Source: Pseudoxanthomonas sp. PXM01 (GTDB taxonomy: Bacteria; Pseudomonadota; Gammaproteobacteria; Xanthomonadales; Xanthomonadaceae). Taken from it: DNA of 64,000 nt. The notes beneath the pieces were generated by a model that did no database searches, was not told where the DNA came from, and saw only the letters and a list, made by a program, of their open reading frames with translations. A program made the position numbers and the translations under genes. Location of the stretch: positions 682,001-746,000 of the forward strand of contig NZ_JACVAJ010000001.1 of assembly GCF_014851815.1 (NCBI RefSeq). The letters run 5' to 3'. Numbering within the stretch: position 1 is the first letter of the stretch; every line of letters begins with the position of its first letter. This document shows positions 1 through 49,340 of the stretch, in pieces.

Positions 1-587
1 CGTGTTTCCGCATGCAGGTCGGCACCGTCGCCCAGACGCGTACGCGGCTCGTGCGGCTGTGCCGCCATGCGATCGATCTGCTCGACCAGCGCGCGCGCAC
101 CGCCATGCCGGACTGCGACGGTCTCGACCACCGGCACACCGAGTTCGCGCTCCAGCGCGGCGAGATCGATGGCGATGCCGCGACGCTGCGCGGCATCCAT
201 CATGTTGACCGCCAGGATCATCGGCTTGCCGAGTTCGCGCACTTCCAGCGCGAACCGCAGGTGCAGGCGCAGGTTGGTGGCGTCCACCACGCAGACCAGC
301 ACGTCGGGCGCCGCCTCGCCGGGATAGAAGCCGCGGCAGACGTCACGGGTGACGGCTTCGTCCAGACTTGCGGCGTGCAGGCTGTACGCCCCTGGCAGGT
401 CCAGCACGGCGTAGCTGCGACCGGAGTCGCTCGAATGCAGTCGCCCTTCCTTGCGCTCGACGGTGACGCCGGCGTAGTTGGCGACCTTCTGCCGGCTGCC
501 GGTCAGCTGGTTGAACAACGCGGTCTTGCCGCAGTTGGGATTGCCGACCAGCGCCAGCCGCAGCGTCGATGCGTCGGAAGCGCTCAT
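1..587 (-). CDS. feoB: Ferrous iron transporter FeoB, N-terminal part (runs off the window)
   Basis: This is the first 195 residues of FeoB, the inner-membrane Fe(II) permease with a cytosolic GTPase domain. Reading the minus strand from ATG at 587 shows the G1 loop GNPNCGKT near residue 15, G2-type VTVERKEG, G3 DLPGAYS and G4 NMMD, the normal order for the FeoB G domain. The ATG overlaps the feoA stop codon by four bases, so the two are translationally coupled. The membrane part lies outside the window. Regulation is expected through the Fur-box candidate upstream of feoA. The open reading frame has no internal stop. Identification is secure from the G motifs and the feoA partner. Confidence 0.95.
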   Translation of the reverse strand, partial: MSASDASTLRLALVGNPNCGKTALFNQLTGSRQKVANYAGVTVERKEGRLHSSDSGRSYAVLDLPGAYSLHAASLDEAVTRDVCRGFYPGEAAPDVLVCVVDATNLRLHLRFALEVRELGKPMILAVNMMDAAQRRGIAIDLAALERELGVPVVETVAVRHGGARALVEQIDRMAAQPHEPRTRLGDGADLHAET

Positions 588-38178: not shown

Positions 38179-39450
38179 CTAGGCCGAGCGCAGCACGTCC
38201 GGATGCCGCACCTGCCCCTCCCCACGCACCACGAACCGTTCCACCGTCAGCGCCTCCAACCCCATCGGTCCGTACGAATGGAGTCGCGTGGTGGAAATGC
38301 CGATTTCCGCACCCAGCCCCAACTCGCCGCCATCCGAGAACCGCGATGAGGCGTTGACCATCACCACGGCTGACCGCAGTGCGTTAAGAAATTTCTCCGC
38401 ATGGACGGGATCGCGAGTGACGATCACCTCGGTGTGGTCGGACGTATAACGGCGGATGTGGGTGATAGCGGCATCCAGGTCGTCCACCACGCCGACCGCG
38501 ATCACCAGGTCGAGGAACTCGGCGGCGAAATCCTCGTCCGTTGCGACGACCGCACCCGGCATCAGCGCTTTGGCCGCCGTATCCGCCCGGACCTCGACGC
38601 CGCGCGCACGCAGCGCCTCGGCCGCACGCGGCAGGAAGGTCGGCGCGATATCCCGATGGACCAACAGCGTCTCCAGCGAGTTGCAGGCCGAAGGACGCGA
38701 CACCTTGCCGTCCAGCAGCAGGGCCAGCGCCAGGTCCTCGTCCGCGCCCGCATCCACGTACTGGTGGCAGACACCCTTGTAGTGCTTGATGACCGGCACG
38801 CGGGCGTGTTCGGCGACGAAGCGGATCAGTCCCTCACCACCGCGCGGAATCACCAGGTCAACGATGTCGCTGAGCTGGATCAGTTCCAGGATGGTCTCGC
38901 GGCGCAGGTCCTCGACCAGCGTCAGCACCGCCTCAGGCAACCCGGCCTCGCGCAGGGCCCGCTTCAACGACGCTGCGATGGCGGTGTTGGAATGGATCGC
39001 TTCCGACCCGCCGCGAAGGATCACCGCGTTGCCCGCCTTCAGGCACAGCGCCGCCGCGTCCGCGGTGACGTTCGGGCGCGCCTCGTAGATCATCGCGATC
39101 ACGCCCAGCGGCACCCGCACGCGTTCGACGTGGATACCATTCGGACGGTCGTAGGCACGGGTCACCTGCCCGACCGGATCCGGCAGTTCCGCCACTTCGC
39201 GCACGGCAGCGGCGATACCTTGCAGCCGGGCGCTGTCCAGGCGCAAGCGATCCAGCATGGCGCTACCGATGCCTTTGGCCGCGGCCGCCTCGATGTCCTT
39301 CGCGTTGGCTGTCAGGATCTCCGCCTCGTCGGCCAGCAATGCATCCGCCATCGCCCGCAGCAGCGCATTCTTCGCCTCGGTGGGCAAGGACGCGATGGCA
39401 TGGGCCGCGTCGCGGCATTGCAGGGCTTGCTGGGTGATCTGGCCGGTCAT
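38179..39450 (-). CDS. proA: Gamma-glutamyl phosphate reductase
   Basis: A 423-residue aldehyde dehydrogenase-fold enzyme reducing gamma-glutamyl phosphate in proline synthesis. The catalytic Cys is in [22 protein letters not shown] contacts include [15 protein letters not shown] and [11 protein letters not shown], and the C-terminus contains [25 protein letters not shown] 39450 is 20 bases after proB. It is the last gene of the arg-pro unit. Confidence 0.96.
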
Positions 39451-39469
39451 GGGGTTCCCGTCTGCGTGC

Positions 39470-40618
39470 TCACACCAGGACCAGGTCGTCGCGATGGACG
39501 ACGTTCTCGCCGTAGGTGTAACCGAGGATGCCTTCGATGTCGCGCGAGTGGCGGCGCGCGATGCGGCGGATGTCGACCGCCGAGTACTGGCTGACACCAC
39601 GCGCGATGCGGCGGTCGCCGCCTTCGTCGCGCAGCACCAGCTCGATCATGTCGCCACGGCGGAAATCGCCTTCCGCCGTGGTCACGCCACCGGGCAGCAG
39701 CGACGCGCCCTTCTGGCCCATCGCACTCGCCGCACCGGCATCGACCACGATGGCCCCGGATTCGACGGGCACGTTGCGAAGCCAGTACTTGCGCGCGGCC
39801 AGCCGGTTCTGCGCGGGCCGGAAGCGCGTACCGAGCAGCGCGCCGCGCGCCAGCGTGGAGACGGTCGCCGCCTGCGTGCCGTTGAACAGGAAGGTCTCGA
39901 TGCCGGCTGCCGCCGCCTTGGCCGCCGCTTCCAGCTTGGTATGCATGCCGCCGGTACCGACGCCGCTGCCGGCGCCGCCCGCCATCGCGAAGAATTCCGG
40001 CGTCAGCGCCTCGACATCCAGGATCGGGCGCGCATCGGCATGCGTGCGCGGATTGGCGGTGTAGAAGCCGTCGATGTCAGTGGCGATGAACAGCGCATCG
40101 GCGTCTATCAGGGCCGCAACGACCGCGGCGAGGTTGTCGTTGTCGCCGAGCTTGAGTTCATCGACGGACACGGTGTCGTTCTCGTTGACCACCGGCAGCG
40201 CACCCAGCGCCAGCAGTTCCTGCAGTGTCGCGCGCGCGTTGAGGTAGCGACGACGGTTGCGCAGATCGTCGTGGGTCAGCAGTACCTGCGCCACGGGACG
40301 ATCGAAGAACCGCTGCCATAGCGCGATCAGCTGCGCCTGCCCAAGTGCCGCCAACGCCTGCCGCTCCGCCATCGCCACACCGGCCTGCGGCTTGCGATGC
40401 AGCAGCCCGCGCCCGGCCGCGACCGCACCGGACGACACGATCACCACCTCGCGCCCGGCGGCGGTGCTGGACGACACGAACTGCGCCAGGTTCAGCGCGT
40501 GGCGCGGGCTGAGCCCCTCGCCATCGGCCGCCAGCAGGCTGCTGCCGACCTTGAGCACGGCGCGACGCCAGGCCGGCAACGGTTGTTCGGAGAACGGCAG
40601 CGGCGCGGCGTGGGTCAT
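39470..40618 (-). CDS. proB: Glutamate 5-kinase
   Basis: A 382-residue kinase starting proline synthesis. The amino acid kinase domain shows [20 protein letters not shown] and [21 protein letters not shown]; the C-terminal PUA domain begins around residue 285 and holds [27 protein letters not shown]. Proline feedback is expected at the kinase domain. It sits nine bases after the YciI-like gene, so it is downstream of argH in the same transcript. Confidence 0.96.
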
Positions 40619-40627
40619 GGGGTCAGC

Positions 40628-40885
40628 TCAGCGTGTGTTCCATTCGTAGACGGTGAGGTCGGACGTTCCGGTCAGCGCGAGGGGATCGCGCGCCGCGATC
40701 GCCCGCGCTTCCTCCAGCGATGCCACGTTGACCAGCACGTAGGCGCCGCCACTCTTGTCGCTGAAGCCGCCGGTCATCTCCAGCTGTCCGGTGGCGCGCA
40801 ACTCGTCAAGGAACGCGAGATGCGGGGCGATGACGGCGTCATCGAACGACGGCCGACGCATTGCCATGACGAGGTAGCGCGTCAC
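40628..40885 (-). CDS. YciI family protein
   Basis: An 85-residue ferredoxin-like alpha/beta barrel protein. [35 protein letters not shown] and the [16 protein letters not shown] tail are typical of YciI. Its function is not known. The start is GTG 40885, overlapping argH by four bases. Its place between argH and proB suggests co-expression with amino acid synthesis. Confidence 0.85.
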
Positions 40886-42174
40886 AGGGCGTCCCAGCGG
40901 GCGAGCAGTTCGTCCAGACGCAGATCGGCCGCCGCGCCGGGCGAGACGCGCGCGGCAAGGCTGCCTTCCGGCGTACGTCCCAGCCCTGCGCTGTCGGCCG
41001 ACGCGGCCGCGGCCTTGTAGGCTTCGCGGAATGGCACGCCCGTGACCGCCGCTTCGACCGCGACGTCGGTGGCGTACATGCCGGAATCGATCGCGGCCCG
41101 CAGTTTTTCTTCGCGCCAGCCCAGGTTCGCCAGCAGCGCCGGCAGCAGTTCCAGCGCCGGCAGGCCGCGGCCGAAGCCGTGGAAGATCGCGCCCTTGCTG
41201 GCCTGCAGGTCGCGGTGGTAACCCGACGGCAGCGACAGCAGCTGCTCGATCTCGCTGCGTGAGGCGGACACGCTGGCGTGGGTCGCGCGCATCAGCTCGA
41301 TGACATCGGGATTGCGCTTGTTCGGCATGATCGAACTGCCGGTGGTGTACTGCGCCGGCAACGAGACAAAGCCGAACTCGGCGCTGGTGAACAGCGACAG
41401 GTCCCACGCGATACGCCGCAGGTCCAGCGTGGCGGCGCCGAGGGCTTCCAGTGCGGCCAGCTCGAACTTGCCGCGCGACAGCTGCGCGTAGATGGGGCTG
41501 ACCTGCATGCGCGCGAAGCCGAGCGCGGCCGTGGTGTGCTCGCGGTCCAGTTTGAGGTTGACGCCATAACCGGCGGCGGTACCCAGCGGATTGGTGTCGA
41601 CCAGCCGCAACGTGTCGCGGGCGCGTGTGGTGTTGTCGATGAAGGCTTCGGCCCAGCCCGCCCACCACATGCCGGCCGACGACACCACCGCCCGCTGGAT
41701 GTGCGTGTAGCCGGGGATCGGCAGGTCGCGTTCGGCCTGCGCACGGTCAAGCGCGACCTTGGCGATCTCGCGCGACAGCACGGCCACGCGCGCCAGCTTT
41801 TCCTTCAGCCACAGGCGCGTGGCGACCAGGATCTGGTCGTTGCGGCTGCGCCCGGTGTGGATCTTGCGGCCGGCATCGCCGAGGCGCTCGGTCAGACGTG
41901 CCTCGATGGCGGAGTGGCCGTCCTCGAAGCGTTCGTCGAGCACGAAGTCGCCGCGGCGGAAATCCTCTGCCAGCACCGCCAGTTCGCGCTTCAGGCCGGC
42001 GAGTTCGTCGCCCGACAGGATGCCGCTGCGCTGCAGGCCTTCGGCATGCGCAGCGCTGGCCTGGATGTCGTGCAGGAAGAACTCGCGGTCCAGCACCACG
42101 TCGTCGCCGGCCAGGAAGCGCTGGATCTCCGCGTCCACCGCCACGCCGGGCTTCTGCCACAACAGGTCGCTCAT
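40882..42174 (-). CDS. argH: Argininosuccinate lyase
   Basis: A 430-residue fumarase-superfamily enzyme releasing arginine and fumarate. The signature [18 protein letters not shown] holds the catalytic Ser loop; GRSRNDQ and GYTHIQRAV hold substrate and catalytic residues. The numbers of residues and the layout fit ArgH. ATG 42174 overlaps argC by four bases. Confidence 0.96.
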
Positions 42175-43133
42175 GCCGTCGTCTCCTGCGGAATGCTCTC
42201 CAGCTCGTCGAAGCCGAAAGCGAGATTGAGGTTCTGCATCGCCTGCGTCGCCGCGCCCTTGAGCAGGTTGTCCAGCGTGGCGACCACGACCAGCCGCTTG
42301 CCACCCGGTGCCAGCGTGAAGCCACCGATCTCGACGCCGTGCTCGCCGGCGATCCGACTGACCCACGGCGCTTCGTCGAGGACGCGGATCAGCGGCTCGG
42401 CCGCGTAGCGTTCGCGGTACAGCGCACGGACGTCGTCGATCTTCATGGCCTGCTGCAGCCAGAGATTGACCGTCATCGTGATGCCGCGGAAATGCGGCGC
42501 GACATGCGGCATGAACTCGACCGGCACGCCGAGCTGCCGGCTGACTTCACGCTCGTGCATGTGGTCGGTCAGCGCGTACGGCATCAGGTTGTCGCGCAGA
42601 AGTTCGGTGTTGTTCTTGTCCGACGGCGACGTGCCCGCACCGGAATAGCCCGACACGCCGAAGCACTGCGGCGGCCCGGCCAGGCGATCGAGCAGCGGCG
42701 CGATGGCCAGCTGCATCGCGGTGGCGTAGCAGCCGGGATTGCTGATGCGCTTCTGGCCCGCGTACTTCCTGCGGGTCAGTTCCGGCAGGCCGTAGTACCA
42801 GTGCTCGTCGAAACGAAAATCCGCCGACAGATCGACGACGACGGTATCGGGCGCCTGCGCATCGATGGCCGCCACCAGTTCGGCCGCCTTGCCATTCGGC
42901 AGTGCCAGGATGATCGCGTCTGCGCCCTTGCCGCCGACCTGATCATGGCTCAGGGTCTCATAGCGCAGTTCGCCCTCGAAGCCCGAGATATGGTCGCTGA
43001 CCTTCTGCCCGACGAGCTCGCGCGAAGACACGAAGGCCAGCTCCAGCTGCGGATGGCGGGCGATCAGGCGGATCAGTTCCGCGCCGGTATGGCCGCGGGC
43101 ACCGACGATGCCGACGGTCTTTTTGCTGCTCAT
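42171..43133 (-). CDS. argC: N-acetyl-gamma-glutamyl-phosphate reductase
   Basis: A 320-residue NADP enzyme for the third step of arginine synthesis. The N-terminus [21 protein letters not shown] is the Rossmann site; the active-site Cys is in [29 protein letters not shown] carries the catalytic His. ATG 43133 overlaps the GNAT gene by four bases. Confidence 0.96.
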
Positions 43134-43753
43134 GGGGATTCCTGTTCGTGCTGCGCCAGCCGGGCCTGCAGGTTGCGTTTCACCGCGGGCCATTCGCTGT
43201 CGATGATGGAAAAGACGACGGTATCGCGCGGCGACCCGTCGGCGTGGCGCTTGTGGTTGCGCAACACGCCGTCCTGCTTGGCGCCCAGGCGGGCGATGGC
43301 CGCGCGCGAGCGATGGTTGAACCAGCTGGTCTCGAACACCACGCTGATGCAGCCCAGCGTTTCGAAGGCGTGCGCCAACAGCAACAGCTTGGTTTCGGTA
43401 TTGACGCCGGTCCGCTGGACGTCCGGTGCATACCAGGTGTAGCCGATGCTGAGCTTGGGCACGTCCGCTTCCAGCCCGTAGTAGCGTGTGCTGCCGACGA
43501 CGCGGCCATCGGCATCCAGCACCACGAACGGCAGCACGCGGCCGTCGGTCTGCGCCGCCAGCACTGCGTCGACGTAGCTCGCCGCCTCGTCGGCCTTCGG
43601 TACGCTGGTGAACCACAAGGCAGCCAGCGTGTCGCCCGCCAGTGCCGCACGCAAGCCTTCGGCGTGGTCGCGCGACATCGGTTCCAGGCGCGCATGGCGA
43701 CCCGCCAGGACGGGGACCTGCTGCCAAGCAGCGGGAAGCGAGGCGGTCGCCAT
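43130..43753 (-). CDS. GNAT family N-acetyltransferase (RimJ/RimL type)
   Basis: A 207-residue acetyltransferase. The acetyl-CoA site is around [21 protein letters not shown], followed by [22 protein letters not shown], which is the RimJ/RimL-like ending. It is placed between argB/A and argC in the arginine unit but does not resemble N-acetylglutamate synthase. A protein or small amine target is more likely. It ends overlapping argC and starts one base after the argB/A stop region. Confidence 0.85.
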
Positions 43754-43754
43754 G

Positions 43755-45074
43755 TCAGTCCTTCAGCGTCGGCAGCCGCGTGCGGCAATGGGCCACGCAA
43801 CGCTCGATATCACCAAAATCCTCGATGCCGTACCAGAATACCTTCCACTTCTCCTGCTTGTAGCAGCCGTCCGACTCGGCGTAGTAGAAGATGTTGACCT
43901 GGTTGTTGTGGCGCGAACGCCAGAACAGCTGCGGGTTCTCTTCACGCATCACGTGCCAGACCGCGCGACCCAGGCCTTCGCCCTGCGCGTCGTCGAGCAC
44001 CGCGAACTTGTCGAGGTAGGCGAAGCCCTCTTCCTGCGTCAGGATCAGCGCGGTGCGGTAGTTCTCGCTGATGTAGATGCGGTAGGGCGTGGTGCGCTCG
44101 AAGTAGTCCGGCAGCAGCGTGCGGCCGAAGCTGGATTCGATCAGCGTCTTCAGACGCGGCAAATCAACGCCCTCCCAGCCGTTCTGGAAACGCAGCACGC
44201 GCTCACCGCGACGCACCAGTGTGCCGGAACCGCGATGGGTGAACAGTTCCTTGGCCAGTTCGGCCGGCTTGGTGATCGACACCGACGAGGTCAGCGGCAG
44301 GCGATCGAGCAGATCCTTGATCTGCTCGATCTTCACCCGCATGCCGCCGTTGATCCACGGCTGCGACATCAGCTCGTCGTACTCGGTCGACAGGTTGATC
44401 GAGTCGATCACGCGTCCTTCCGCGTCCAGCAGGCCACCGGTGCCGGTCAGGAAGATGATCTTGTACGGCTGCAGCACCTGCACCAGTTCGTTGGCGGCGA
44501 AATCGGCGTTGATGTTGAGGATCTGTCCGCCGACGGTCTCGCCCATGCTGGCGATCACCGGGATGGAGCCCGCTTTCAGGCTGGCCTCGATCGGCGACTG
44601 GTTGATGCGGGTGACGTCGCCGACCAGCCCGTAGGTGGCCTGGTCCTTGTACTCGGCCTCGAACACGCCCGACACGATGGAGGTGGCGCGCGCACCCAGT
44701 TGCTGCAGCGCCTCGACCAGCGCCAGGTTCTGTTGCAGGAACACCTTGCGCACGATCGCCAGCACCTCGGGCGTGGTCACCCGCAGGCCGTTGACGGTCT
44801 GCTTGGTGATGCCGGCGGCCGTCATCTCTTCATCCAGTTGCGGACCGGCGCCGTGTACCACGATCGGGGTCAGGCCGACTTCCTGCAGGAAGGTCAGCGA
44901 GGACGTCAGCGCTTCCAGATCGTCGCGCAGCACCGCGCCGCCGACCTTGACCACGGCGAAGCGCTTGGCGTCCAGCTGCGAGAAGCGCTTGACGTACTGC
45001 GAAATTTCCTTCGCGCTGCCCATGCTGGACAGAAGCCTGATGATGGTCTGACGGGTTTGCTTGTTCGATTCCAT
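43755..45074 (-). CDS. argB: Fused N-acetylglutamate kinase/N-acetylglutamate synthase
   Basis: A 439-residue bifunctional enzyme that makes N-acetylglutamate and phosphorylates it. The amino acid kinase part (about 1-280) has [37 protein letters not shown] and the regulatory lysine/glycine loops. The C-terminal part (about 290-439) is the vertebrate-like NAT domain with [23 protein letters not shown]. This NAGS-K fusion is characteristic of Xanthomonadaceae and resembles mitochondrial enzymes. It is probably inhibited by arginine. ATG 45074 is followed upstream by a family 2 repeat. Confidence 0.95.
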
Positions 45075-45153: not shown

Positions 45154-46245
45154 TTACTCCAGAATCCGGACCACGCTGTCGGCGTACCGCTGCAACTGCT
45201 CCAGCGACACCCATTCGTCGGCCGTATGCGCCTGCGCGATGTCGCCCGGGCCGTAGACGAAGGCGGTGAGGCCGGCGGCCGAGAACAGCGAGGCCTCGGT
45301 CCAGAAGTCCACCGCATTGCCGATCGGCAGCCCGAGTTCGTCCGCGAGGTCTCGCGCTGCCAGGCGGCGCTCTTCCGCACGGGCGATGTCGCCGGACGGC
45401 AACGACGGACCGCGGAAGGTCTCTTCGTACTCGGCCAGCGCATCGGCATTGGCGAAGCTGCGGAAGGTGGCGTGCAACTGATCCATGTCCTGCGACGGCA
45501 GCGGACGGAAGCCGAAACGGACTTCCGCGCTGGGCGCAATCATGTTGGCCTTGATCCCGCCTTCGACCCGGCCGATGTTGAAGCGCAGCCCGGTCAGTCC
45601 GCCGAAACGCAGATGATGCTGGTCCTGCACGAAATCCAGCGCGGTCGTGCCCCAGCGCATCGCGTTGTGCAGCGCGCTCAGCGACAGCGCGTTCTCGGCC
45701 GAGGCATGGCCCGCCTGTCCCTTGAACGCCATGCGTACGGCACTGATGCCGCGGTGCGCGAGCACCGCTTCGCAGCGGCTCGGCTCGGCAATGATCGCCT
45801 CGCCGAAGCCATGGTCGCGTGCCAGGAAGGCGGCGATGCAGCGTGCGTCGTTGGCTTCCTCGTCGGTGGTGAACAGGAACGCGGCATCGCCCTGCGTGAC
45901 CTGCGCGGCCGCGACCAATGCCGCCGCTGCACCCTTGATGTCGCAGGCGCCCAGGCCGATCGCGCGATCGGCCTCGATCCGCAGCGCATGCGGGCTGGCG
46001 CTCCACGCCGGCGACGACGGCACCGTGTCCAGGTGCACGTTGAACACCCGCTTCGGCTGGCCGCGCACGGCGAAGAACGACACCGCGCCCGCACCGTGGT
46101 CGGTCACCTCGATGCGGAAATCCGGCAGCTGCGCGCGCAGGTAGTCGAAGATCCCGTCTGTGCCGATGTCACGCGGCGGATTGCGGGTGTCGAACGACAC
46201 CAGCGCGTCGAGATGGCGCAGGGTGCTGGCAAGCAGGTCAGTCAT
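45154..46245 (-). CDS. argE: N-acetylcitrulline deacetylase (ArgE-like M20 hydrolase)
   Basis: A 363-residue zinc M20 hydrolase. Metal ligands are seen in HLDTVPSSPAW, LGACDIKGAAAAL, TTDEEANDARC and the final VDFWTEASLF/GPGDIAQAHTADEWV. In an organism whose carbamoyltransferase acts on N-acetylornithine, this enzyme should deacetylate N-acetylcitrulline to citrulline rather than N-acetylornithine. That is inferred from the neighbour argF'. ATG 46245 lies 27 bases after argG. Confidence 0.92.
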   Translation of the reverse strand: MTDLLASTLRHLDALVSFDTRNPPRDIGTDGIFDYLRAQLPDFRIEVTDHGAGAVSFFAVRGQPKRVFNVHLDTVPSSPAWSASPHALRIEADRAIGLGACDIKGAAAALVAAAQVTQGDAAFLFTTDEEANDARCIAAFLARDHGFGEAIIAEPSRCEAVLAHRGISAVRMAFKGQAGHASAENALSLSALHNAMRWGTTALDFVQDQHHLRFGGLTGLRFNIGRVEGGIKANMIAPSAEVRFGFRPLPSQDMDQLHATFRSFANADALAEYEETFRGPSLPSGDIARAEERRLAARDLADELGLPIGNAVDFWTEASLFSAAGLTAFVYGPGDIAQAHTADEWVSLEQLQRYADSVVRILE

Positions 46246-46272: not shown

Positions 46273-47481
46273 TCAGCCGCGGTTGATCTCGGCCCACAGG
46301 GTCGAGCTCATGCCGAACAGCTTGATGAAGCCTTCCGCCTCCTCCACGCCCCAGTCGGCGGACTGCGCGTACGTCGCACCCTTGGCGTTGAGGATGTGCG
46401 GCGACTTCACCGCCACCGCGTCGACGCGGCCACCGCGGGTCTCCAGCACCACCTCGCCGTTGACGATGGACTGCGACGACTGCAGGAAGGCTTCCAGGTC
46501 GGCCTTCAGCGGATCGTGGTAGAAGCCTTCGTACACCAGCTCCACCCACTTGCGTGCGACCTCGGGCTTGAAGCGGTTCTGCTGCTTGGTCAGCACGGTT
46601 TCTTCCAGCGCGCGGTGCGCGGCCAGCAGCGAGACCAGGCCCGGCGCCTCGAACACGATGCGGCCCTTCAGGCCGATCACGGTGTCGCCGGTATACACGC
46701 CACGGCCCACGCCGTACGGCGCGAACAGAGCGTTCAACTTCGCCAGCAGCGCGGCGCCGGCGACGGGCTGGCCGTCCAGGCTGACGGCTTCGCCGTGCTT
46801 GAAGCCGATCGTCACCCGCAGCGGCGCTTCGGGCCACTCGGCGCGCGGCGCGCACCAGCCACGCGCGCCTTCGCCGGGCGCTTCCCACTTGTCGATCTCG
46901 CCACCGGACATGGTCAGGCCCAGCAGGTTCTCGTTGATCGTGTAGCTCTTCTGCTTGGCGCGCACGCCGAAGCCGCGCTCTTCCAGATACGCCTGTTCGT
47001 AAGCGCGGGTCTGCGTGTGTTCCTTCTGGATTTCGCGGATCGGCGCCACGATGCGGTAGTCGCCACTGGCCTTGACGGCCAGGTCGAAGCGGACTTGGTC
47101 GTTGCCCATGCCGGTGCAGCCGTGCGCGATGGCATTGGTGCCCAACTCGGCGGCACGCTTCAGCGCGGCGTCGACGATCAGGTAGCGGTCGGACACGAGC
47201 AGCGGGTACTGGCCCTGGTAGCCCTCGCCCGCCCACACGAACGGCTTGACGAAGCCGTCCCAGATCGCAGGACCACCGTCGACGGTGACGTGGCTGGCCA
47301 CGCCCAATTCGGCGGCACGCTGCTCGATGAAGGTGCGCTCTTCGGCATCCACACCACCGGTGTCGGCGAACACGGTGTGGACGTTCCAGCCGCGTTCCTT
47401 CAGGTAGGGCACGCAGAAGCTGGTGTCGAGGCCGCCGGAGAAGGCGAGGACGATGTCTTTGGAGTCGTGGGGGGTGGTCAT
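46273..47481 (-). CDS. argG: Argininosuccinate synthase
   Basis: A 402-residue enzyme joining citrulline and aspartate with ATP. The PP-loop is [17 protein letters not shown] at the N-terminus; [17 protein letters not shown] and DNEYxIxxR-type segments follow. ATG 47481 gives [18 protein letters not shown] family 2 repeat separates it from argF'. The gene is in the expected place for the acetylcitrulline pathway. Confidence 0.96.
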
Positions 47482-47492
47482 CTTGAAGCTCT

Positions 47493-47563
47493 CGTAGGGT
47501 GGGCCCTGGCCCACCGTGATGGTGTGGTGTCGGTGTCGAAGCGGCGGGCCTGGGCCCGCCCTA
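47493..47563. repeat. GC-rich hairpin repeat, family 2, copy 3
   Basis: GTAGGGTGGGCCCTGGCCCACC at the left and GGCGGGCCTGGGCCCGCCCTAT at the right, head to head between argG and argF'. The final CTA provides the TAG stop of argF'. Confidence 0.78.
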
Positions 47564-48562
47564 TTTGATCAATGCCGCCATGATGGCCTTCTGCACGTGC
47601 AGTCGGTTCTCGGCTTCGTCGATGGCGATGCACTGCGGCGAATCCATGACGCCATCGGTCGCCTTGACGTTGCGGCGCAACGGCAGGCAGTGACTGAAGA
47701 CGCCGTTGTTGGTCAGCGCCATCTTCCGCTCGTCGACGATGAAGTGCTTGTACTGGTCGCGGATCGGCTTCTCGGGCTCCCAGTTGCCGAAGAACGGCAG
47801 CGCGCCCCAGCTCTTGGCGTAGACGACGTCCGCGCCGGCATAGGCGCTGTCGATGTCGTGGCTGACCTGCAGCGAACCACCGCTCTCGGCGACGTTCTGC
47901 TCGGCCCAGCCCATGTAGCGCTCATCCAGCACGTAGTCCGGCGTCGGGCACAGCAGGGTCACGTCCATGCCCATGCGCGTGGCGATGGTCAGTGCCGAAT
48001 TGGCCACGGCGGTGTTCAGCGGCTTCGGGTGGTAGGTCCAGGTGAGCACGTACTTCTTGCCGCGCAGGTCGGACGTACCGAAGTGCTCCTGCAGTGCCAG
48101 GGCATGCGCCAGCTCCTGGCAGGGATGGGTGATGGTCTCCATGTTGATCACCGGCACCGGCGAGTACTTGGCGAACGACTTCAGCACGATGTCCTCGCGG
48201 TCGTAGGCCCAGTCGACGAACTTCGGGAACGCGCGCACACCGATCAGGTCGACGTAACGGCCCAGCACCTTCGCCACCTCGGCGATGTGCTCTTCGGTGT
48301 CGCCATCCATCACCGTACCCAGGTTGAACTCGATCGGCCACGCATCCTTGCCCGGCTGCAGCACCACCGCATGCCCGCCCAGCTGGAACGCGCCCAGCTC
48401 GAAGCTGGTGCGGGTGCGCATGGACGGGTTGAAGAACACCAGCGCGATGGACTTGCCCTTCAGCGCGTCGCCCAGCTTGTTCTGCTTGTAGAGGGCAGCC
48501 TGCGTCAGCAGCGCGTCGAGGTCGCTGCGGCTCCAGTCCTGCGTGTTCAAGAAGTGCTTCAT
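47561..48562 (-). CDS. argF': N-acetylornithine carbamoyltransferase
   Basis: A 333-residue transcarbamylase acting on N-acetylornithine instead of ornithine. The carbamoyl phosphate loop is [14 protein letters not shown], the HPCQ motif is [11 protein letters not shown], and the substrate loop is [19 protein letters not shown], where the Lys after NV is the specific carbamylated Lys of the Xanthomonas enzyme. The replacement of the ornithine-binding HCLPA form by this loop sets it apart from OTCase. ATG 48562 follows a leader with a terminator and an Arg-codon ORF. It is the first gene of the arg-pro unit. Confidence 0.96.
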
Positions 48563-48605
48563 TACGGCATCCTGGTTTCGGGAATGTGGCAAAACGGGCT
48601 TCAGA

Positions 48606-48634
48606 AACGAAAAAACCCAGCCTCTGGCTGGGTT
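48606..48634 (-). terminator. Leader terminator upstream of argF' (attenuator)
   Basis: On the minus strand, AACCCAGCC (48634-48626), loop AGA, GGCTGGGTT (48622-48614), then a T tract. It lies 44 bases before the argF' start codon. A transcript stopped here would never reach the arg genes, so it must be conditional. Confidence 0.8.
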
Positions 48635-48669
48635 CCGGTGAACAAACGACGACGTCCGGGGTACCCAGC
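48627..48669 (-). promoter_or_regulatory. Predicted antiterminator of the argF' leader
   Basis: GCTGGGT (48669-48663), starting within the leader ORF stop codon, is an exact complement of ACCCAGC (48633-48627), the 5' half of the terminator; two more pairs extend it after a mismatch. The two structures are mutually exclusive. A ribosome resting on the stop codon would cover the first segment and favour termination. Confidence 0.65.
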
Positions 48670-48761
48670 TAGATGCAGGATTCCGGTCGACGCGCACGCG
48701 ACGTCATGCTCGAGGCCTGAGAGGCCGCGCTGTCAGCATGGGCGTGTGCGTTCATCTTCAT
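48669..48761 (-). CDS. Arginine leader peptide candidate (argF' attenuator)
   Basis: A 30-codon ORF from ATG 48761, or 12 codons from ATG 48707 (MTSRARRPESCI), ends at TAG 48671-48669. Three Arg codons (CGT, CGT, CGA) lie within the last nine codons, just before the antiterminator segment. Slow decoding at these codons when charged tRNA-Arg is low would leave the segment free and allow readthrough into argF'. No strong ribosome site is seen for the 30-codon start; AGG lies about eight bases before ATG 48707. The position and codons support it; translation is unproven. Confidence 0.55.
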   Translation of the reverse strand: MKMNAHAHADSAASQASSMTSRARRPESCI

Positions 48762-48833
48762 GGGCGCGAATGCTCGCATGTGCTGCGGCGCAGCGCAAGG
48801 ACGGATTCGGTTGCGTGTGCAACCGTGCACGAA

Positions 48834-49340
48834 TCAGGGACCGCTGGCGGTCGGCTGGACGGGCGCCACGTAGGGCACCACGGAAATGCGGATGCGCAGG
48901 CGGTTGCCGGGATCCTCGGCCAGCCGCGAGCGGTACTTCACGCCCTTGTAGATGTAGTCCACGTCGTAGGCGATGGGACGCTGGAACTCGCGCTCGATGG
49001 GCACGACGCGGCAATTGACCTTGACCGCGGGCAGCGTCACCGGAGGCGTCTGCGCCGGCTCGTCATCGCCGCCGAACCAGCCCCGCACCGAACTGACCAT
49101 CCGGCTCCAGCGCCCCTCGTCCTTTGCTTCCGGTGCAGCGGCTTCAGTCTTGGATGCGGGCACTTCATCGCAACGCTGCTCGGTGCGGGTCGCCCGCAGG
49201 GTCTGGTACACCGGCTCCACGCCCAGCACCTGCGCATAGTCCAGACGAACGTTCTCCGTCGGGATCACCCGTTCCTGCGCAACGACCGGGGCGGCGAGCA
49301 GGCAACAGGACAGGAGAAGGGCGGTACGGAGGCGGGGCAT
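48834..49340 (-). CDS. Exported protein of unknown function
   Basis: A 168-residue protein with a signal peptide (MPRLRTALLLSCCLLAAPVVAQ). The middle is low complexity (Glu, Ala, Lys), and the C-terminus AYDVDYIYKGVKYRSRLAEDPGNRLRIRISV resembles the tail of glycine-zipper envelope proteins, although no glycine zipper is present. It lies upstream of the argF' leader on the same strand and is divergent from cysS. The function is not known. Confidence 0.75.
   Translation of the reverse strand: MPRLRTALLLSCCLLAAPVVAQERVIPTENVRLDYAQVLGVEPVYQTLRATRTEQRCDEVPASKTEAAAPEAKDEGRWSRMVSSVRGWFGGDDEPAQTPPVTLPAVKVNCRVVPIEREFQRPIAYDVDYIYKGVKYRSRLAEDPGNRLRIRISVVPYVAPVQPTASGP

Follow-up and report, generated by a model that had tools for sequence, protein, structure and literature searches.

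A putative ribosome-mediated arginine attenuator in the argF' leader of Pseudoxanthomonas sp. PXM01

The argF' leader and the genes behind it

The window, a stretch of 64,000 nucleotides (nt) from Pseudoxanthomonas sp. PXM01 (contig NZ_JACVAJ010000001.1, positions 682,001 to 746,000), contains arginine and proline biosynthesis genes on its minus strand, headed by argF', encoding N-acetylornithine carbamoyltransferase. The argF' leader (about 48763-48606, minus strand) comprises a putative promoter, a leader open reading frame (ORF), a cluster of Arg codons, and segments able to pair as alternative 1:2, 2:3 or 3:4 hairpins. Its sequence suggests ribosome-mediated transcription attenuation in cis, by which the arginine operon (and with it probably the proline genes) would be controlled according to the charging of transfer RNA (tRNA)-Arg. 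We put the probability of this reading at roughly 0.9.

From 5' to 3', the leader consists of TTGCGC, 17 nt, GAGCAT, 8 nt and an ATG, followed by a 30-codon ORF, GCTGGGT running on from the TAG stop, CCGG, a second CCGG, a terminator and T residues (Table 1). The Arg codons are CGT (48698-48696), CGT (48692-48690) and CGA (48689-48687). GCTGGGT (48669-48663) has the G of the TAG stop as its first base, and segment 2, which it opens, extends into the first CCGG (48659-48656), able to pair with the CCGG that opens segment 3. The terminator, GGAACCCAGCC-AGA-GGCTGGGTTTT (48636-48612), precedes the T residues.

An earlier reading made from the letters alone (the sequence-only reading) had described a leader with an Arg-codon ORF, a GCTGGGT segment starting in its stop codon, and a terminator with a T tract. 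All of these parts are present on the minus strand, and ACCCAGC is, as had been claimed, the exact complement of GCTGGGT. For the ORF itself, that reading had given a short in-frame form, MTSRARRPESCI and a stop (48707-48669, minus strand). This form is present, but the leader ORF is probably the longer, near-leaderless form in the same frame (48761-48669). A second, out-of-frame ORF with three Arg codons (MLTARPLRPRA and a stop, 48739-48704, minus strand) was set aside, since by eye it is not kept in relatives, whose conserved frame reads MTSRARR. It overlaps the start codon of the short form (ATGA).

Table 1. Positions in the window of the argF' leader elements and of the genes downstream
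Feature	Position	Strand	Basis or remark
-35 element TTGCGC (putative)	48793..48798	-	17-nt spacer to the -10 element; TTGC-type element at the same place in relatives, by eye
-10 element GAGCAT (putative)	48770..48775	-	Same basis as the -35 element; matches the sigma-70 consensus weakly
Inferred transcription start	48763	-	2 nt before the leader AUG; from alignment of Rfam RF02242 position 1, taken as the 5' RACE end in X. oryzae
Leader ORF MKMNAHAHADSAASQASSMTSRARRPESCI and stop	48669..48761	-	30 codons; open frame conserved
Regulatory codons CGT-GCG-CGT-CGA (Arg-Ala-Arg-Arg)	48687..48698	-	Conserved codons and spacing to segment 2
Segment 1, CCGGAATCC	48678..48686	-	Predicted to pair with segment 2 (3' part), -19.7 kcal/mol, z -0.87
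Segment 2, GCTGGGT-ACC-CCGG	48656..48669	-	Starts in the stop codon; complementary to segment 3
Segment 3, CCGGAACCCAGCC	48626..48638	-	Shared by the antiterminator (3' arm) and the terminator (5' arm); 2:3 fold -21.5 kcal/mol, z -2.63; co-variation
Segment 4, GGCTGGGTTTT, with the intrinsic-terminator U-tract	48606..48622	-	3:4 fold -17.1 kcal/mol, z -4.14; terminator scan
argF', N-acetylornithine carbamoyltransferase, first controlled gene (predicted)	47561..48562	-	NF003384, 643 bits (cut-off 288)
argG, argininosuccinate synthase	46273..47469	-	NF003385, 795.8 bits
argE-like deacetylase; acetylcitrulline deacetylase inferred from the pathway	45154..46245	-	NF006439, 619 bits; model named acetylornithine deacetylase
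argB, acetylglutamate kinase	43755..45074	-	NF003386, 842 bits
ORF containing argC	42171..43727	-	TIGR01850, 336 bits; true start further downstream
ORF containing argH	40882..42366	-	TIGR00838, 284 bits; true start further downstream
proB, glutamate 5-kinase	39470..40618	-	TIGR01027, 408 bits
ORF containing proA	38179..39600	-	NF001221, 596 bits

Among the ORFs of this region, that at 43130-43753 gave no NCBIfam match at an expectation value (E) of 1e-15.

A loose terminator scan was not discriminating (1 hairpin, against a shuffle mean of 0.9), and a generic promoter scan reported none at the leader, which counts against the promoter call. Both strands of the window were then scanned more strictly for a terminator with a 7-nt segment 2 and an Arg cluster; this gave 3 terminators, 1 with a segment 2 and 1 with all parts. 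The last is this leader, where the Arg run reported is an overlapping one in a different reading frame. The same combined layout was found 0 times in ten 64-kilobase Markov sequences, scanned on one strand each. The terminator fold is marked, with none of 200 shuffles as stable, and the antiterminator 2:3 fold is less so. When the whole leader was folded, the unconstrained minimum-energy structure contained the 2:3 pairing and the centroid contained the terminator. Conservation is stronger evidence than these chance scans.

Arg codons and alternative stems in relatives

Close relatives were represented by the best 80 of 580 confirmed argF' relatives, which with the window gave 81 leaders; keeping the best 80 makes this set lean to close kin. 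The records are titled Pseudoxanthomonas, Stenotrophomonas, Xanthomonas, Luteimonas, Lysobacter and others. All 81 leaders encode RARRP (pattern CG.GC.CG.CG.CC.) in an open upstream frame, all 81 carry CGY-GCN-CGY-CGA, and in all 81 an ATG or GTG lies in frame 17-25 codons upstream of the Arg run, with the frame open to a stop. An extra Arg codon, often CGG (35/81), lies eight codons upstream of the core in 74 of the 81. One record, titled Bacillus subtilis SK7B5, has a Stenotrophomonas-like argF' and leader, with 94% identity to the window protein, and is probably mislabelled or contaminated.

Within the order, argF' was matched at E 1e-20 in 275 of 299 genomes, a few of these matches being distant. 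From these, 78 upstream regions were inspected (8 + 30 loci, and 40 stretches picked for genus spread), including one from the window's own genome. The core MTSRARR is present in 56 of the 78, from the families labelled f1, f2, f3 and f12. The other 22 (families f4-f10) lack the core peptide and show instead sequences such as ARRRDRRP, RRRSRRP, NPRRRRV, RRLRRP, IRRRRG and VRRNRRR.

An automatic terminator search found a hairpin in 157 of 158 upstream regions, including several wrong picks, and the terminators were then re-anchored downstream of the Arg codons. This gave 156 anchored leaders, 136 core and 20 divergent. L102 was spuriously anchored and was left out of the 156; L107 was unanchored, and was counted only in the by-eye peptide survey and the control described next. 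For L159 and L160 (family f11), L162 and L163, the analysis covered the ORFs only. One anchored leader (L106) has its leader peptide, GRRARRTRRPLLAG, twice, 186 nt apart and with N nearby, which may be a tandem duplication or an assembly artefact.

Because this anchoring selects for Arg codons, a control was run on the 22 divergent regions in which the terminator was picked without regard to Arg. A terminator was found in 21 of the 22. At least three Arg codons in six occurred in the ORF before the terminator in all 21, compared with 3.10 expected from dinucleotide shuffles, and at least four in six occurred in 15, compared with 0.39 expected. The Arg codons thus outlast the similarity of the peptide, which fits the prediction for an attenuator that reads codons. 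Conservation of the Arg codons in relatives, suggested beforehand as a check, was therefore borne out by the core in 81/81 close relatives and by the cluster in 21/21 divergent leaders with a terminator.

The choice of Arg codons is also distinctive. Among 409 Arg codons in the core six-codon clusters, CGT occurs 143, CGA 135 and CGC 131 times, and CGG, AGA and AGG occur 0 times. For comparison, the argF' genes of 80 named loci contain 10 CGA and 85 CGG among 1277 Arg codons, and ten window ORFs contain 4 CGA and 24 CGG among 227. In the eight-codon windows of the 20 divergent leaders, 31 of 86 Arg codons are CGA, with 1 AGG and 0 CGG, compared with 29 CGA and 89 CGG of 405 in the argF' genes of 22 divergent loci. 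Fisher tests gave 3.6e-78 for CGA and 4.1e-11 for CGG in the core, values that relatedness makes far too small, and 5.5e-11 and 6.5e-9, respectively, in the divergent set, where it does so less. CGU, CGC and CGA are decoded by a single tRNA, tRNA-Arg(ICG), and CGA is decoded slowly. We infer that the element reads tRNA-Arg(ICG), with CGA as the main stall site and a ribosome at that site covering segment 1.

Co-variation was examined at the middle position of the stems in the 156 anchored leaders, where the pairing of segments 3 and 4 follows by construction of the search and segment 2 is the best-pairing 7-mer. Between segments 2 and 3 the middle pair is T-A in 109, C-G in 38, T-G in 5 and a mismatch in 4; between segments 4 and 3 it is T-A in 113, C-G in 42 and T-G in 1. 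The main segment 2/3 pairs are GCTGGGT/ACCCAGC and GCCGGGT/ACCCGGC, and others include GCTGGGC/GCCCAGC (f10) and GCCAGGT/ACCTGGT (f8). Joint changes in segments 2, 3 and 4 are seen in several lineages. When the stop codon alone defined segment 2 (104 leaders, two families), none of 2000 partner shuffles reached the observed pairing. Compensatory changes in both alternative stems, the other check proposed earlier, are thus seen as co-variation, though the independent events behind them are few.

The spacing of the parts is similar in most leaders. Counted from the first base of segment 2, the stop codon starts 6 nt downstream in 113 of the 156 and 2-3 nt upstream in 20, and 20-22 nt separate the last Arg codon from segment 2 in 135. 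Ribosome positions were represented in folds by leaving out the RNA up to 13 nt beyond the start of the A-site codon, taken as the ribosome footprint. With the ribosome on the last Arg codon, the 2:3 hairpin forms before segment 4 is made in 152/156 leaders, and with the ribosome on the first Arg codon in 149/156. With the ribosome on the stop codon, it forms early in 3/156, and the terminator forms in all 156.

Leader peptide, Xoo5 RNA and other regulators

Two Ala residues, at -9 and -6, occur in every one of the 136 core leaders, and Gly -4 is present in 127, although none of these residues is in the selection pattern. The first and second positions of the two Ala codons are fixed and the third positions vary (entropy 0.30 and 1.42 bits); such variation at invariant residues points to selection on the peptide and argues for translation of the ORF. 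In the 81 close relatives, which were selected on RARRP only, Thr and Ser precede the Arg run in all and Met in 80.

Plain codon attenuation needs no conservation of the peptide, and we therefore considered nascent-peptide arrest, for which TnaC- and SpeFL-type systems are models. Here A..A.GMTSRARR in the exit tunnel would stall the ribosome, perhaps by sensing arginine, and the Arg codons would be only part of the signal. The invariant Ala residues, the Gly, the coding-type third-position variation and the fixed Thr and Ser all agree with this proposal, and the strongly conserved peptide leaves room for a nascent-peptide contribution. However, the residues beyond the Arg codons are conserved in the four core families only; in the divergent families f4 and f6-f10 the peptide is not conserved and the Arg cluster is kept. 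The bias to CGA, CGC and CGT, with no CGG, likewise points to the codon or tRNA level and not to the residue. Arrest by the peptide as the principal signal thus appears unlikely to us. A tentative idea, to which we give somewhat more credence while still considering it improbable, is a peptide-assisted arginine attenuator on a near-leaderless RNA, in which nascent A..A.GMTSRARR sets or sharpens the stall at the slow CGA read by tRNA-Arg(ICG), so that starvation and arrest act jointly. The released peptide might act in trans, and the system might have taken over from, or been replaced by, ArgR within one order.

The pattern TTG-16..18-.A...T-5..9-in-frame start is present in 109 of the 156 leaders, compared with a shuffle mean of 0.7%. 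The remaining 47 do not fit it, which again counts against the promoter call; in family f12 the start lies, by eye, mostly about 20 nt further down.

The leader also resembles a known RNA. The whole Rfam model RF02242 (Xoo5, positions 1-124) aligns to 48763-48643 with 46.1 bits (E 1.5e-8), which misses the gathering score of 50 by about 4 bits, so that the window leader is a relative with the same place and layout and not a curated member. In X. oryzae, sRNA-Xoo5, a small RNA (sRNA), was reported as 124 nt by 5' rapid amplification of complementary DNA ends (RACE), according to Table 2 of PMC3039613. Its neighbours are PXO_00354 and PXO_00353, of which the second is named as an N-acetylornithine carbamoyltransferase, and Northern blots gave transcripts of ~130 and ~100 nt in early growth and only the short one later (PMC3039613). 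In the same report, ArgG and ArgF' (PXO_00352, PXO_00353) were down-regulated in a mutant of another sRNA, Xoo1 (PMC3039613). Since the length of the RF02242 model (124) equals the RACE size, position 1 was taken as the RACE end. Alignment and gene neighbours indicate that Xoo5 is this leader in X. oryzae, and RF02242, typed as an sRNA, looks like a coding cis-regulatory leader.

A covariance model built from 51 leaders gave exactly one match of at least 60 bits (61-114) in 30 of 41 genomes, all of families f1, f2, f3 and f12; the leaders of the window and of several others of these 30 genomes were in the training set. No match of at least 60 bits was found in the other 11 genomes (f4-f11), the model missing divergent leaders inside the order. 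When the search was widened to the class (369 genomes), only five members of the order scored strongly and the best score outside it was 39 bits, with 9 candidates scored per genome under strict filters. Of the many weaker matches, eight were inspected and appear by eye to be ordinary gene-end terminators.

Xoo5 might instead be an independent, trans-acting small RNA with its own terminator, the control of argF' being incidental; it was described as an sRNA by Northern blot and 5' RACE in X. oryzae (PMC3039613), and is so held in Rfam. Against this, the model search, which is independent of argF', placed the element just before argF' in all 10 of the 30 matched genomes with known argF' positions (five of these 10, and the window, being in the training set). 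Further, the core leader is an open reading frame under selection at the peptide level, and in distant families all but the attenuator layout changes. We regard a separate trans-acting role as very unlikely.

ArgR (PF01316, E 0.001) was not found in the window's genome (12 contigs, listed as 100% complete), while 9 of 14 control genomes matched. In the order it was found in 8 of 299 genomes, all of family f11, and not in the other 291. Control by ArgR was rejected on these grounds, and the attenuator appears, from these sequence comparisons, to act in place of the repressor protein that usually controls arginine genes. The argF-type matches of family f11 are distant (E 1e-58 to 1e-74), and in one of its ArgR-bearing genomes (G011) the leader model scores at background only (30 bits). 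ArgR and the attenuator look like alternatives within the order, though one genome (G005, family f5) has neither. At two f11 loci (L159 and L160), ArgR shares its stretch with an aminotransferase-like ORF (identified by eye) beside a distant argF-type gene; this arrangement was not seen at the other argF' loci inspected.

The failure to find ArgR leaves room for other regulators, which were not searched for, and the promoter region is conserved, as it would be if an unrecognised DNA-binding regulator controlled the operon at the promoter and the terminator merely set a constant level. Such a regulator would leave unexplained the conserved Arg codons, stop position and segment 2, and the three-way co-variation, and we hold this explanation to be very improbable. 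Direct binding of tRNA-Arg or arginine by a T-box or riboswitch would have a precedent in the arginine T-boxes of other bacteria, which are the arginine RNA control named in the available text of PMC1262725. However, no such family was found at threshold in the window, where only a tRNA reaches gathering. Within 48400-48900, Xoo5 alone matches at E up to 1, and the leader contains an ORF with Arg codons. We give a T-box or riboswitch almost no weight.

Proposed mechanism and comparison with known systems

The leader has the parts of a his/trp-type attenuator, namely a leader ORF with codons for the end product, an intrinsic terminator before the first gene, and a co-varying antiterminator that is exclusive with the terminator. 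Attenuation of this type with arginine, as the sequence-only reading had proposed, is supported by the conservation of the Arg codons, the co-variation of the stems and the failure to find ArgR. According to the model, transcription would start about 2 nt before the leader AUG, and the ORF would probably be translated from a near-leaderless RNA, as the Xoo5 5' RACE and the promoter position suggest. With ample arginine, the ribosome would get to the stop codon inside segment 2 and cover that segment, and segments 3 and 4 would form the terminator. If charged tRNA-Arg runs short, the ribosome would stall on CGU-GCN-CGY-CGA, covering segment 1. Segment 2, about 20 nt downstream, would then be free to pair with segment 3, and RNA polymerase would read into argF'. 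If the leader were not translated, 1:2 pairing would let 3:4 form.

Several observations weigh against this model. The independent co-variation events are few because most of the co-variation is one split between two families (f1 and f12 in the set of 104 leaders), and the shuffles ignore relatedness. Four leaders (L104, L105, L106 and L145) have a mismatch at the middle position, and segment 2 is imperfect in others, with a terminal C-A in six leaders, two mismatches in three f2 leaders, and weak pairing in several f3 and f9 leaders; the antiterminator was counted as present although it is imperfect in some leaders of f1, f2, f3, f7 and f9. The 1:2 hairpin of the window is no better than that of shuffles (z -0.87). 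In the complete leader at equilibrium, with the ribosome on the last Arg codon, the terminator still forms in 143/156, so that the switch must be kinetic and decided during transcription. Even in folds that lack a ribosome, 2:3 appears ahead of segment 4 in 68/156, and the protecting role of 1:2 is therefore not general, being only partly supported in the folds. Conservation of the core peptide extends past the Arg codons, and plain attenuation has no need of this. By the Rfam alignment, the cloned Xoo5 complementary DNA has its 3' end at 48643, which is 7 nt short of the terminator stem, and the Northern sizes reported for Xoo5 (~130 and ~100 nt) are smaller than the 158 nt expected for a terminated leader, so that trimming or processing must be assumed. 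Lastly, at L102 (G005) argF' is present, and neither a terminator nor a leader nor ArgR was found. The upstream neighbour at L102 ends in LRIRI.., resembling the end of the window's neighbour, and the leader seems to have been lost in place.

We found no description of an arginine-operon attenuator of this kind in the open-access literature, although most subscription papers lay outside the search and an earlier description is possible. The sequence-only reading had likewise known of no described Arg-leader attenuator for the acetylcitrulline pathway; the leader RNA itself had, however, already been seen, as the sRNA Xoo5. In the available text of a paper on ArgR regulons (PMC5343134) the word Xanthomonadales does not occur, and in that of PMC2965389 Xanthomonas is named once, for rpsL, with no word beginning argin.

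If the model is true, arginine biosynthesis would join the pathways under ribosome-mediated transcription attenuation. The model would also suggest how bacteria of the order with the acetylcitrulline pathway regulate their arginine synthesis in the absence of ArgR, and Xoo5, an orphan RNA, would gain a function. Near-leaderless translation coupled to attenuation, and slow CGA decoding, could then be studied in a natural system.

The ribosome-mediated his, trp and leu attenuators of proteobacteria were reportedly surveyed by Vitreschak et al. in 2004. The element shares with them a leader ORF rich in codons for the end product, a stop beside segment 2, exclusive 2:3 and 3:4 stems, a U-tract terminator and a biosynthetic operon downstream. 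It differs from them in its arginine codons, its probably near-leaderless ORF, a peptide strongly conserved in four families, and enrichment of the rare CGA.

By alignment and neighbours, sRNA-Xoo5 is the same RNA, matching the window at 48763-48643. It was described as a small non-coding RNA, and the available text mentions no leader ORF, attenuator or arginine for Xoo5 (PMC3039613). The ArgR regulon of gammaproteobacteria, as far as the available text describes it, also controls arginine biosynthesis genes, but through a DNA-binding repressor (PMC5343134), one found here only in the few f11 genomes. In the orf34 leader of Salmonella speF, two consecutive Arg codons, rare or frequent, sense arginine by ribosome pausing and choose between RNA structures. 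From the available part of that report, orf34 acts on a polyamine gene via Rho, RNase G and access to the ribosome-binding site, and is not an intrinsic-terminator attenuator of arginine synthesis (PMC6386406). Similarly, Arg codons of the S. aureus rbfL leader peptide sense arginine limitation; there, according to the available text, the codons are AGA/AGG, pausing occludes the ribosome-binding site, and a biofilm regulator is controlled (PMC13009471).
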